DNA from: Flavobacteriales bacterium
GTDB lineage: Bacteria; Bacteroidota; Bacteroidia; Flavobacteriales_D; Crocinitomicaceae
Direction of reading: 5' to 3'
Length of the DNA: 64,000 bases
Assembly (NCBI GenBank): GCA_947500875.1
Contig: CANMUN010000005.1
Coordinates: 1 to 64,000 of the forward strand
Shown piece after piece: positions 24,380 through 30,868 of the stretch (its first letter is position 1; every line of letters starts with the position of its first letter). Made by a program: the position numbers and the translations under genes. Under the pieces are notes generated by a model, which was not told the DNA's origin, ran no database searches, and worked only from the letters and a program-made list of their open reading frames with translations.

Positions 24380-24394
24380 TTAACCTATGGTTAA
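24380..24394. promoter_or_regulatory. 15-bp palindrome between the divergent topA and miaB promoters
   Basis: TTAACC and GGTTAA flank a three-base centre. It lies between the topA -7 box (24315-24322) and the miaB -33 element (24425). Direct repeats TTGACAT at 24413 and 24426 lie between it and the miaB promoter. An operator role is inferred only. Confidence 0.3.
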
Positions 24395-24424
24395 TAATTT
24401 TAGCCGAAGGAATTGACATGACAA

Positions 24425-24455
24425 TTTGACATAAACGCAAATTGATTTAACTTTG
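24425..24455 (+). promoter_or_regulatory. Promoter of the miaB operon
   Basis: TTTG at 24425-24428, 19 bases, then TAACTTTG at 24448-24455: one of the best matches to the Bacteroidota promoter in the window. The ATG of miaB begins only four bases after the box, so transcription probably starts at or next to the start codon. Confidence 0.7.
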
Positions 24456-24459
24456 CGCC

Positions 24460-25917
24460 ATGCAACCCATCAATTCGAATGAACCCTTGGACGAAATCCG
24501 CCAGGGAGAGGTCACCCTTCTGGAAAACGGCCCAACTCCCCGCGGAGATAAAAAACTGTACTTGGAAAGTTACGGCTGTCAAATGAATTTTTCCGACAGT
24601 GAAGTTGTTGCCTCCATTTTGGCAACCGACGGATACCAAACCACGCGGAACATCGAAGACGCCGATTTAGTACTTATTAATACGTGTTCCATCCGTGACA
24701 ATGCGGAACAGCGGGTGAGAAAGCGCTTAACGGAATTCAAGTCCTTAAAGAAAAACAATCCCGAACTTGTTGTTGGGATTTTAGGCTGCATGGCCGAGCG
24801 GCTCAAAAAAAACCTGCTCGAAGAAGAACATTTGGTCGATTTAGTTGCAGGGCCCGATGCTTATCGCGATCTACCCAACTTGTTGAACGAGGTTGGCACC
24901 GGTCAAAGGGCTGTCAACGTACTCCTTTCCCGAGAAGAAACCTACGCTGACATAACACCGGTACGCTTGGACCAAGGAGGAATTTCTGCCTTTGTAACGA
25001 TCATGCGTGGTTGCGACAACATGTGTTCTTTCTGCGTGGTACCTTTTACCCGGGGAAGGGAGCGTTCTCGGAACCCCCATACGATCGTAGAAGAGTGCCG
25101 CGAACTTTTCAAAAACGGCTACCGAGAAGTAACCCTTCTTGGTCAAAACGTGGACAGTTACCGATGGAACCTCACATCGAAAGGAGCCATCATAGAGCCC
25201 AACGAGGCGACCGTGAACTTTGCGCAGCTTTTGATCATGGTTGCCGGAGTTTCTCCCGAGTTGCGTGTTAGGTTCAGCACGTCGCATCCCAAAGACATGA
25301 CGGATGAGGTGCTACACGCCATTGCCGATCACCACAACATTTGCAACTACATCCACCTCCCCGTTCAATCCGGCAACAGCCAAGTACTTGAACGAATGAA
25401 CCGAGGATATTCACGAGAATGGTATCTGAATCGCATCGAAGCCATTCACCGAATCATACCGAATTGCGCCATTTCCACAGATATTATCTCTGGGTTTTGC
25501 GGGGAAACAGAGGAAGAACATCAATCAACCATTGAACTGATGAAGGAAGTTTGCTTTGACTACGCCTACATGTTTAAATACTCCGAAAGGCCTAAAACGC
25601 TCGCGGAACGAAAATTTGAAGACGACGTACCTGAAGAGGTCAAAGGAAGGCGTTTGACGGAGATCATTGAACTGCAAACGGGACATAGTTTGTTGAAAAA
25701 TCAACGACAGATTGGACAGATTCAAGAAATTTTGGTTGAAGGACCCTCTCGACGTTCAGACGACCAATTTTGCGGAAGAAATTCACAAAACAGCATGGTG
25801 GTATTTGACAAAAAAACGGCTGTTAAAGGAAGTTATGTGTTCGTTAAAATTGTGGATTGTACCTCGGCTACCTTGATGGGAGAATTGGTTGAAAACAAAA
25901 ACAGCGAGCATCCATGA
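24460..25917 (+). CDS. miaB: tRNA-2-methylthio-N6-dimethylallyladenosine synthase
   Basis: MiaB is a radical-SAM enzyme that adds a methylthio group to i6A37 of tRNA using two iron-sulfur clusters. C40, C76 and C110 (YGCQMN, NTCSIRD, GCMAERL) bind the auxiliary cluster and C185, C189, C192 (CDNMCSFC) the radical-SAM cluster. The TRAM domain lies at about 415-480. At 485 residues it is normal. A start after the promoter must be at this ATG because the conserved core begins soon after. It leads a tightly packed operon; its stop overlaps the next start as ATGA. Confidence 0.96.
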
Positions 25918-27146
25918 CCGTACAGCAAATTAAACAACGTTTCTCTATTGTAGGTAATTCTTCGGGTTTGAACAGAGCCCTTGAAATTGCCGCTCAGGTT
26001 GCAGCAACGGATTTGGCCGTATTGGTGACCGGAGAAAGCGGGACTGGAAAAGAGATCATTCCACAAGTAATTCATCAACTTAGCAGTAGAAAACACAAAG
26101 AGTACATTGCGGTCAATTGCGGTGCAATCCCGGAAGGAACCATTGATTCTGAGTTATTTGGACATGAAAAAGGCTCGTTCACCGGTGCCGCAGGAAACCG
26201 TCAAGGATATTTCGAAGTTGCCAACGGCGGAACCATTTTCTTGGATGAAGTGGCGGAATTACCCATGCAAACCCAGGTTCGATTGTTGAGGGTTTTGGAA
26301 ACGGGCGAATACCTGAGAGTTGGGGCTTCAAAGCCTCAAAAAACCAATGTGCGTGTCGTAGCCGCTACCAACGAAAACATGCAGCAGGCCATTGCGAAAG
26401 GAAAATTTCGGGAAGACCTTTTTTACCGACTAAACACCATACCTATTGCACTTCCTTCGCTTCGGGACCGCGGTGAAGACATCCACCTTTTGTTTCGGAA
26501 ATTTGCCAGCGATTTTGCAGACCGTTATCGCATGCCAACCATCAAGCTCAACGATGAGGCAATAGAACTGCTCAATGCCTATCGATGGCCTGGCAACATC
26601 CGTCAGCTGAAAAACATCGTTGAACAGTTGAGCATCATCGAAACGGAACGAAACATCGATCGCATCCTGCTCAAAAATTACCTTCCAAAGTCCGCAGAAT
26701 CAGGGGCGCTTGTAGTCAATACCCCCAACCAGGAATCAATTTCTGAACGCGAACTAATGTACAAGTTTTTGTTCGATATGAAACGTGACCTCACGGACCT
26801 AAAAAAATTAGTCGTAGAGGTGTTAAGCCAGACCGGTGGTATTGAACTCAACCCTGACCAGAACATCTTAGTGAATAAACTGTACCAAGATTTCGGGGCA
26901 AGTGTGCCGGGTACAATACTCCCACAAAGCCTAATGCCTCCTAAAATTCAGGAATTGGAGGAACAAGAAGATTTTACCCTTCACGAAGATTTTGAAGAAT
27001 CCTTGTCGTTGGAGGAACGCGAACGCGAGCTCATCCAAAAAGCCTTGGAAAAACACCGGGGCAAGCGCAAATATGCAGCCAAGGAGTTAGGTATTTCCGA
27101 GAGAACCTTGTACCGTAAGATTAAGGAATTTAATTTAGCAGAGTGA
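25914..27146 (+). CDS. Sigma-54-dependent transcriptional activator without sensory domain
   Basis: A 410-residue NtrC-family activator consisting only of the AAA+ domain (about 12-240) and a Fis-type helix-turn-helix (about 373-408, [20 protein letters not shown]), joined by an acidic linker. Walker A is GESGTGKE (40-47), the sigma-54 contact loop is GSFTGA (87-92; the commonest form is GAFTGA) and Walker B is GGTIFLDE (105-112). No receiver or ligand-binding domain is present, so its activity may be set by abundance or a partner. It sits between miaB and lptE in an overlapping operon. No sigma-54 promoter was seen in the window. Confidence 0.93.
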
Positions 27147-27652
27147 AAATTATCATTGTCGGCATACTATCGGTCCTGCTCTTCGGTTGTTGGCCAAGCC
27201 GAATAGGATTCAAGGACGTTGGAGGCATGCCCGAAGAATGGGAGCGCTTTTACCTTCAAACGCTTAGAATAAGTGCCCCTACTTGTCCACTGAGTTACGC
27301 AGCAGGGCTTTCGGAATCGATTAAAGATGGGATTCAAAACAATACGAGGCTTGGATTAACTCCCAATTTGAACGATGCCCAAGTTCAACTTTCAGGAGAA
27401 ATCACCAATTATTCGGTCAACCCAATTGCCTTACAGAACGGGGATAATGCGGCGAAAAACCGTTTAACCGTGAGCGTTGTTTTTGATGTTAATGTTACGC
27501 TACCTAAAAAGGAGGAGACTAAATTGGTGGTAACCCGTTTTGCAGATTTCGACGCCGGTGCAAATTTTGCAAGCGTTGAAAACCAACTTTTAACCCAGGT
27601 TAACGAACAGGTGGTACAAGATGTTATCAATAAACTAATGAGTAACTGGTGA
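27143..27652 (+). CDS. lptE: LptE-like LPS assembly lipoprotein
   Basis: A 169-residue lipoprotein with signal peptide and lipidated C16 (VLLFGCW). The conserved Bacteroidota LptE pattern is visible: IGFKDVGGMPEEWERFYLQTL, then LSGEITNYSVNPIAL, and a long C-terminal amphipathic helix QLLTQVNEQVVQDVINKLM. LptE plugs the outer-membrane LptD barrel that inserts lipopolysaccharide. The start codon is GTG, overlapping the previous stop as GTGA; the next gene begins in the same manner. Confidence 0.88.
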   Translation: MKIIIVGILSVLLFGCWPSRIGFKDVGGMPEEWERFYLQTLRISAPTCPLSYAAGLSESIKDGIQNNTRLGLTPNLNDAQVQLSGEITNYSVNPIALQNGDNAAKNRLTVSVVFDVNVTLPKKEETKLVVTRFADFDAGANFASVENQLLTQVNEQVVQDVINKLMSNW

Positions 27653-28482: not shown

Positions 28483-28791
28483 ATGATCACTACCATTTTG
28501 TCCATCATCATTTCACTTGCAGCGTTATTGTTGATTTTTGTTGTTTACATTCAAAATCCAAAAGGAGGCGGTTTAAGCAGCGATTTCGGAAGTCCAACCC
28601 AACTTGGGGGGGTAAAACAAACCACCGAATTCATCGATAAATTGACTTGGGGTCTTGCAGCAACGATTGTGGTAAGCGCCGTGATCATGACCATGCAGCA
28701 ACCGAAGCCACAAGCAGCGAATAAAAACACTCCTCAAACCCAACAAGCTCCGGCAAAAGGAGGACAAAACGCACCCCAAGGAGGCAAATAA
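28483..28791 (+). CDS. secG: Preprotein translocase subunit SecG
   Basis: SecG is the small auxiliary subunit of the SecYEG inner-membrane channel. Two membrane segments (about 2-22 and 50-70) flank the conserved loop VYIQNPKGGGLSSDFGS. A Gln/Pro/Gly-rich tail ends the 102-residue protein. It starts immediately after the preceding stop and closes the miaB-led operon; groES follows 128 bases later with a separate regulatory region. Confidence 0.94.
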   Translation: MITTILSIIISLAALLLIFVVYIQNPKGGGLSSDFGSPTQLGGVKQTTEFIDKLTWGLAATIVVSAVIMTMQQPKPQAANKNTPQTQQAPAKGGQNAPQGGK

Positions 28792-28804: not shown

Positions 28805-28825
28805 GAAGTGTCAGGCTGTCACTTC
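28805..28825. promoter_or_regulatory. 21-bp near-perfect palindrome upstream of groES
   Basis: Arms GAAGTG and CACTTC plus the inner bases match their own reverse complement at every position except one symmetric pair and the centre base. It lies 95 bases before the groES start. It is not the CIRCE element bound by HrcA. A heat-shock operator is inferred from position. No clear -33/-7 promoter was recognised between it and groES. Confidence 0.5.
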
Positions 28826-28919
28826 ATCCTGCCAATATTGTTGACTTTACTGAAAAAATGTCTCAATTCGTACATTGGTATGATAATCGAGCTGTTACAG
28901 CAAATCAAAAAATAATTCT

Positions 28920-29195
28920 ATGTCAGTAAAATTTAAACCATTGGCGGATCGAGTTCTTGTAGAGCCCGCGCCAGCAGAACAAAAAACAGCGAGTGGTATT
29001 ATTATTCCTGATACCGCTAAAGAAAAGCCTCTGAAAGGCAAAGTTGTAGCCGTTGGAGGAGGAAAAAAAGATGAACCGATGTCCCTGAAAGTGGGTGACG
29101 ATGTGTTGTACGGACAATACTCCGGAACCGAAATTAAACTGGACGGCACGTCTTATTTAATCATGAGGGAATCGGACATTTACGGAATATTCTAA
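28920..29195 (+). CDS. groES: Co-chaperonin GroES
   Basis: GroES is the heptameric lid of the GroEL folding chamber. The 91-residue protein shows [21 protein letters not shown], the mobile loop [17 protein letters not shown] and [14 protein letters not shown]. It is 35 bases upstream of groEL. Confidence 0.97.
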
Positions 29196-29230: not shown

Positions 29231-30868
29231 ATGGCAAAAGACATATTATTCGACATCGAAGGACGCGAAAAGCTGAAAAGCGGAGTTGACGCCTTGGCAA
29301 ATGCAGTAAAGGTAACCTTAGGCCCCAAAGGAAGAAATGTGGTAATCGGTAAAAAATTCGGAGCTCCACAAATCACAAAAGACGGGGTTACCGTTGCCAA
29401 GGAAATTGAACTGAAAGACCCCATGGAGAATATGGGTGCCCAAATGGTTAAAGAGGTAGCGTCCAAAACGGCAGATATTGCAGGAGATGGTACCACGACC
29501 GCAACCGTTTTAGCACAAGCCATCATTACTGCTGGACTTAAAAACGTTGCTGCTGGAGCAAATCCGATGGATTTGAAAAGAGGCATTGACAAAGCCGTTG
29601 CGGAAGTCGTAAAAAATCTAAAAAAACTTTCCAAAGAAGTTGGAAAAGATGCTTCTAAAATCGAGCAGATTGCCACCATTTCTGCCAACAACGATGAAAC
29701 CATTGGAAAACTCATTTCTCAGGCGATGAAAGTCGTTGGTAACGACGGAGTAATTACCGTGGAAGAGGCCAAAGGAACGGAAACTGAGGTTAAAATCGTT
29801 GAAGGAATGCAGTTTGACCGAGGTTATTTATCTCCCTATTTCGTTACCAACACGGAGAAAATGGTAACGGAAATGGAAAATCCCTTGATTCTTATTACGG
29901 AGAAGAAAATTTCGAGCATGAAGGAATTGCTTCCCATTCTAGAACCGGTAGTTCAAGCCGGAAAAGGGTTGCTAATCATTGCCGAAGATGTAGATGGCGA
30001 AGCACTTGGCACCTTGGTAGTCAACCGTTTGAGAGGCTCCCTAAAAGTCGCTGCGGTTAAAGCACCAGGGTTCGGGGATCGGCGAAAAGCCATGTTGGAG
30101 GATATTGCCATCCTAACCGGTGGGCAAGTAATATCGGAAGAGCGAGGTATGACGCTTGAAAACGTAACCATGGATATGCTTGGTCAAGCGCAAAAGGTTG
30201 ATATCGATAAAGATAACACCACGATTATTAACGGAAAAGGTAAAAAAGATGATATCAAAGCACGCGTGAATCAAATTCGTGCTCAAATCGAAGCTACCAC
30301 CTCGGATTACGACCGGGAAAAACTGCAAGAACGTTTAGCCAAATTAGCCGGTGGAGTTGCTGTCCTTTACGTTGGAGCGCCAACGGAGGTCGAAATGAAA
30401 GAGAAGAAAGACCGCGTCGATGATGCATTAGCGGCTACACGCGCGGCGGTGGAGGAAGGAATCGTTCCTGGTGGTGGTGTTGCGTTAATTCGATCCATCG
30501 AAACTTTAGATAAGTTAAAAGCTGAAAACGAAGATGAGGCAACCGGCATTGCCATTGTCAAAAGAGCAGCGGAAGAACCCCTTCGACAAATCATTGCGAA
30601 CGCCGGAGGAGAAGGAGCCATCATCGTTCAGAAAGTTCGAGAAGGAAAAGATGACTTTGGATACAATGCGCGAACCGACAAATTTGAAAAATTATATTCG
30701 GCAGGGGTTATAGACCCAACGAAAGTAACGCGAATTGCGGTCGAAAATGCAGCTTCCATTGCCTCCATGTTGCTGACAACTGAGTGTGTAATCGTTGATC
30801 AACCGGAAGAAACAAATCCATCTGCCGCCATGGGAGGCATGGGAGGAGGTATGCCCGGAATGATGTAG
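29231..30868 (+). CDS. groEL: Chaperonin GroEL
   Basis: GroEL is the 60-kDa ring chaperonin. The opening [20 protein letters not shown], the ATP-binding [14 protein letters not shown] (about 86-99) and [17 protein letters not shown] (about 403-419) are diagnostic, and the flexible tail ends [11 protein letters not shown]. Length 545 is standard. It forms a two-gene operon with groES, probably controlled by the palindrome at 28805, and is followed by strong hairpins. Confidence 0.98.

Follow-up and report, generated by a model that had tools for sequence, protein, structure and literature searches.

The stretch of DNA analysed here, called the window below, comprises 64,000 nucleotides from a member of the Crocinitomicaceae (genome G000 of our set). 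In it, groES and groEL are preceded by a run of genes on the same strand. A sigma-54 activator (bEBP) is encoded four genes before groES in an operon that begins with miaB, and secG is the last gene before the site studied here. The features are collected in Table 1.

Table 1. Features of the miaB-groEL region, in positions of the window
Feature	Position	Strand	Basis
Second site copy TGACAATTTGACA ahead of miaB and the bEBP gene, putative autorepression site	24419..24431	.	identical 13-mer
Promoter element resembling a -7 box, TAACTTTG, of the miaB-bEBP operon	24448..24455	+	near-fixed distance to site
miaB, first gene of the bEBP operon	24460..25917	+	TIGR01574
Sigma-54 activator (bEBP), 410 aa, proposed binder of the core	25914..27146	+	PF00158, HTH_8, alignment, linkage, model
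lptE, same gene run	27143..27652	+	PF04390
secG, last gene before the core site	28483..28791	+	PF03840
Near-palindrome, 21 bp, GAAGTGTCAGGCTGTCACTTC	28805..28825	.	read on +
Conserved core TGTCAGGCTGTCA, proposed enhancer (UAS) site	28809..28821	+	conservation and helical phasing before groES
TGCCA, degenerate third half-site	28830..28834	+	TGACA at the same place in relatives
Sigma-54-like -24/-12 element TGGTATGATAATCGAG of groESL	28876..28891	+	67 bp after core start
groES, proposed target gene	28920..29195	+	PF00166
groEL, proposed target gene	29231..30868	+	TIGR02348

The near-palindrome between secG and groES is identical to its own reverse complement at 18 of 21 positions, as an earlier sequence-only reading had stated, and 94 bases separate it from the groES start codon. 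The similar stretch which that reading saw shortly after it is real as well (CTGCCAATATTG, which includes the TGCCA of Table 1). The palindrome itself was ruled out as the signal, since the window holds three odd 21-mers that pair at 9 or more of 10 positions, against a mean of 2.9 from ten first-order Markov simulations. Its palindromicity is not above chance, and the palindrome is incidental to a 13-bp core. Placed side by side, the groES leaders of relatives differ in the outer arms, already in the closest relative (G036), and only the core is conserved. TGTCA-N3-TGTCA recurs about 110-145 bp before the groES start codon in most relatives. The core of G036, TGTCAGCTTGACA, is a perfect inverted repeat except for the spacer. 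A third match of the core in G000, on contig C82, has no evident gene beneath it.

The comparison was based on 122 groES upstreams. Of these, 60 came from the G genomes, with second copies of G042, G045, and G055 among them, and 62 from 80 named loci. Some named loci look identical to G genomes (e.g., L255/G056, L263/G055, and L297/G059), so the joint counts do not represent independent genomes. groES was detected in 57 of the 60 relatives. A composite pattern, the core followed 44-74 bases on by TGGYAY, matches in 45 of the 60 genomes; 46 of its 49 matching rows lie at groES, and the reversed-pattern control gave 4 hits. In the window, the downstream element TGGTATGATAATCGAG has the GG at -24, the G at -12, and the fixed spacing of a sigma-54 promoter, and no sigma-70-like promoter was called on the + strand before groES. 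The GG...G is kept in 74 groES upstreams, but by the rule with which they were selected. The -12 element of the window reads TCGA, not TTGC, the C of GC being replaced by A, which counts against an enhancer reading.

Core and promoter were both located in 74 of the 122 upstreams, and their spacings fall at whole helical turns: 45-46, 56-58, 66-69, 76-79, 86-89, and a single 138, with nothing between. The periodicity is strong at 10.3 bp (Rayleigh R=0.92) and was reached by none of 5000 uniform random sets. This null draws uniform integers, maximises R over periods of 8-14, and ignores ancestry. The analysis was therefore repeated with the 18 distinct spacing values (R=0.79) and with the 17 distinct family-by-spacing pairs of the G set alone (R=0.86), each with 0/5000 nulls. 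Relative to the promoter, the upstream sites thus share one face of the helix, as a UAS would.

The strict pair of core and promoter was not found in the other 48 upstreams, which were examined apart and count against an enhancer reading. A looser rule finds a promoter in 41 of them and none in 7. Among these 41, two have no site of at least 8/10, 24 have a site at 25 bp, in phase, and 7 have one at 17 bp, out of phase. G040 and G051, with a core and no promoter by the rule used, count against the enhancer reading too. In many groES leaders of Flavobacteriaceae (e.g., L284 and L314), the site is shifted to 25 bp before TGG, where it appears as TGAAA/TGCAA-GTT-TGTCA with 8-9/10 letters.

Near-copies of the core were also found before other chaperone genes. 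Among 52 dnaK upstreams, 21 had been picked by the composite pattern; the unbiased 31 consist of 30 of the 56 dnaK genomes and G000. A sigma-54-like element is present by rule in all 31 unselected leaders, G000 included, and a site of at least 9/10 core letters in 27 of them; shuffles would yield 0.78 sites for all 52 leaders. The dnaK sites share the phase of the groES sites (mean cosine 0.911; 0/20000 nulls). In G000, the dnaK site is TGACAAATCGTCA, at a spacing of 56. The dnaK upstreams of G001, G006, G038, and G045 hold no 9/10 site, which counts against the enhancer reading. Across the phylum, 54 of 395 genomes gave a match to the composite pattern, and the control columns showed considerable background. 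Loci were given for 30 rows of that scan; among the 27 new ones inspected from the matches listed, 21 start dnaK and 6 do not. The clpB sites are degenerate and weaker than those of dnaK. Only 11 of 28 upstreams (27 of 30 loci and G000; L174 and L185, both truncated by a contig end, and L180, from G001, were excluded) carry a site of at least 9/10, which likewise counts against the enhancer reading, and the mean cosine is 0.654 (2/20000 nulls). The clpB sites of G000, CGTCAAATTGACA, are at spacings of 58 and 26; for clpB of G036, the stretch L336 held just 137 bases.

These results bear on the proposal of the sequence-only reading that the palindrome may be the operator of a non-CIRCE, non-sigma-32 chaperone regulator, to be given up if the motif were missing before groESL of relatives or before other chaperone genes. 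The idea of a regulator site survives, because the core stands before groES in most relatives and near-copies precede dnaK and clpB. The 21-bp operator does not: the protected unit is the 13-bp core, which resembles the enhancer of a sigma-54 activator rather than a classical operator. CIRCE is an inverted repeat before groESL, as is the core, but the two sequences are unrelated. Its absence here, also claimed earlier, holds: even the best fit to TTAGCACTC-N9-GAGTGCTAA among the 122 groES upstreams departs from it at 5 of its 18 fixed positions, and CIRCE was rejected on these mismatches (at least 5/18) and on the lack of hrcA in G000. An HrcA gene is absent in 59 of the 60 genomes, G000 among them; the only one is G046:C176:8908-9444 (L337). 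rpoN was found in 58 of the 60 genomes (in G000 at G000:C2:37065-37538, E 6.1e-50). An Rfam element was rejected as well; the only match is sub-threshold and inside groES, a SAM-III riboswitch at window 28991-29073 with 21.5 bits against a gathering threshold of 45, and was taken as chance.

The bEBP encoded upstream has a Sigma54_activat AAA+ domain (PF00158, 229 bits) with Walker A and a GAFTGA-like loop (GSFTGA), and a C-terminal Fis-type HTH (PF02954, residues 365-406) whose helices are also seen in the structural model. An N-terminal sensor domain was not found; the AAA+ match starts at residue 12. PspF, too, is not known to have an N-terminal sensor domain. With 285 bits against a cut-off of 443.55, the protein is not a member of the PspF equivalog TIGR02974; it would work like PspF but is not PspF. 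The AlphaFold2 model (34 sequences; mean pLDDT 79.4, pTM 0.59) consists of an AAA+ module up to roughly residue 258, a lower-confidence helix at 278-306, disorder at about 326-364, and a three-helix C-terminal domain. K284, F287, M289, and K297 are invariant or near-invariant in the helix region which, as a speculation from the model, may be a place of contact with a partner.

The gene is linked to groES. In 52 of the 57 groES-bearing genomes, it is located a short way upstream of groES; none was found in G031 and G043, and in G047 it is on another contig. In G038 and G052, it is located elsewhere, yet groES keeps its phased site. In named records, the bEBP is present across Bacteroidota, with groES in the same locus in 62 of 80. 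Moreover, the core marks the promoter of the bEBP's own operon. The 943 kb of named loci contain 64 exact TGWCA-N3-TGWCA, 59 of them before groES or miaB: 28 before groES (28/62 loci) and 31 before miaB (31/48 loci). The five others precede the bEBP operon (L274), the bEBP gene (L281, L315, and L316), and a groESL-type promoter (L280). In further relatives, the site precedes miaB in 8 of 9. When a site stands both in the promoter of a regulator and ahead of its neighbour, that regulator is usually the cognate one. Since the core marks both its own operon promoter and the neighbouring groES, the bEBP is the likely binder. A box resembling the TAnnTTTG promoter consensus (PMC9723704) follows 28-33 nt after the start of the site in 41 of 43 cases, which places the site over the -33 region. 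This position suggests that the bEBP may repress its own operon.

The topA-miaB intergenic region also contains TTAACCTATGGTTAA (window 24380-24394), a near-perfect palindrome of the form TTAACC-N3-GGTTAA. It is found in 7 of 9 relatives, one base shorter in an eighth, and in just 3 of the 80 named loci. Possibly, it is the site of another regulator.

Conservation, phasing, linkage, the site shared with the activator's own promoter, and the absence of HrcA can all be read directly from the sequences. On these grounds, we consider it probable that the core is an enhancer and that the bEBP, acting through it, is a PspF-like sigma-54 activator of chaperone genes which represses itself. As a dimer, the bEBP would bind TGWCA-N3-TGWCA upstream of groESL and then assemble. 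From one face of the helix, the assembled activator would contact the sigma-54 RNA polymerase waiting at -24/-12, 67 bp away, and this contact would fire groESL, presumably in response to protein-folding stress. dnaK and clpB would be driven likewise by the same bEBP. An identical site covers the -33 region in the promoter of the bEBP operon; by binding there as well, the bEBP would limit its own amount, in the fashion of PspF.

It is improbable that the core is bound by another DNA-binding protein, such as a chaperone-gene repressor, with the linked bEBP as a bystander. The half-site and its symmetry are not enough to name the binder, and the site at the bEBP operon overlaps the promoter as that of a repressor would. 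However, sites that stand in phase 25-90 bp ahead of sigma-54 promoters suit a looping activator, and such promoters need a bEBP. Furthermore, the core sits in the promoter of this very bEBP, and HrcA is missing from 59 of the 60 genomes.

The element might be nothing more than an intrinsic terminator for the secG operon, its palindrome forming an RNA hairpin, which we regard as very improbable. In most relatives, the groES core does form the left arm of a hairpin that follows secG and resembles a terminator (AAATGTCAGTATGtcacgCATACTGACATTTTTTTT, with TGACA as the right arm). TGRCA and a T run follow the core in 62 of 77 motif-bearing groES upstreams, and the hairpin of G019 folds at -17.6 kcal/mol (z -7.1). 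The combination of TGRCA and T run is missing in the window's genome and 14 others. The window stretch has an ordinary fold (-8.0, z -0.36) and no T run, and a terminator at 28805-28825 was rejected, with none called there on the + strand. The core outlives the hairpin, as 15 of the 77 upstreams, the window included, keep it without a hairpin; further copies lie ahead of dnaK, clpB, and the bEBP operon, and the core is helically phased to the promoter. By comparison of the sequences, the window's lineage appears to have lost the hairpin only and kept the core. In leaders of some relatives (e.g., L050 and L122), one stretch is apparently both the secG terminator hairpin and the enhancer core. 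In the Flavobacteriaceae leaders with the shifted site (e.g., L284 and L314), the terminator is TGCCAACT...AGTTGGCA.

The core might also be the enhancer for a second bEBP. G000 encodes two PF00158 proteins, and the second, G000:C25, counts against the reading in which the linked bEBP is the binder. Only the groES-type bEBP was seen in G010 (99% complete), G034, and G047, although an assembly gap is possible in G010, whose near relatives carry two. With the core marking the groES-type bEBP's own promoter as well, the second protein is a highly improbable candidate. A chance palindrome without function, of which about three of 21 bp are expected per window, can be practically dismissed, as it is the core and not the palindrome that is conserved and phased.

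Sigma-54 promoters at flavobacterial chaperone genes are already published. In Flavobacterium psychrophilum, which is reported to have sigma-54 and seven ECF factors besides sigma-A, sequencing of transcription start sites mapped sigma-54 (SM4) -24/-12 promoters at groESL, dnaK, grpE-dnaJ, htpG, clpB, and lon (PMC9723704). SM4 promoters of this species were reportedly induced on blood agar and by osmotic stress, plasma, and freshwater. In the parts of that paper covered here, heat does not appear as an inducing condition, which counts against the enhancer reading. By locus tag, a sigma-54 regulator gene (THC0290_0733) is near groES (THC0290_0729), but the activator was left open among three PF00158 candidates, and those parts give no enhancer (PMC9723704). 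The chaperone genes studied here have the same -24/-12 elements, to which a proposed enhancer, its phasing, and a likely activator are added. Sigma-54 control of chaperones has also been predicted in Bacteroidota, with a 2009 paper on Blattabacterium cited for the sigma-54 dependence of GrpE and GroES (PMC12316311). An enhancer TGWCA-N3-TGWCA or an assigned chaperone activator was not found in openly searchable full texts, subscription journals being outside this search, so that an earlier description is possible.

The bEBP resembles PspF in that it is sensor-less, has a site in its own promoter, and has stress genes as its proposed targets. PspF of E. coli is a sigma-54 activator kept low by negative autoregulation and serves stress genes (PMC7229158). 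The two differ in their targets, since PspF acts on psp, a membrane-stress operon, and the bEBP of the window is proposed for chaperone genes; PspF is also restrained by PspA. According to the model, the bEBP is further set apart from PspF by an additional conserved helix (278-306) and by a disordered stretch leading to the HTH. The NorR site, GT-N7-AC, was not used as evidence. Sites of the bEBPs FlrA and DVU2894, GTCA-N6-TGAC or TGGC (PMC4641369), share the GTCA/TGAC half-sites of the core, but their spacer is 6 instead of 3 and their targets are flagellar, not chaperone genes.

A wider proposal can be made, which we think unlikely as a whole. The sensor-less bEBP would be the phylum-wide master regulator of chaperones in Bacteroidota, replacing sigma-32 and HrcA. 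It would be self-repressed, held inactive by free GroEL or DnaK on helix 278-306, and freed by unfolded proteins. With a phased, proposed enhancer common to groESL, dnaK, clpB, and the operon of the activator itself, chaperone control can be put directly to the test. Such an enhancer also suggests how Bacteroidota may regulate chaperone genes in the absence of the familiar heat-shock regulators.
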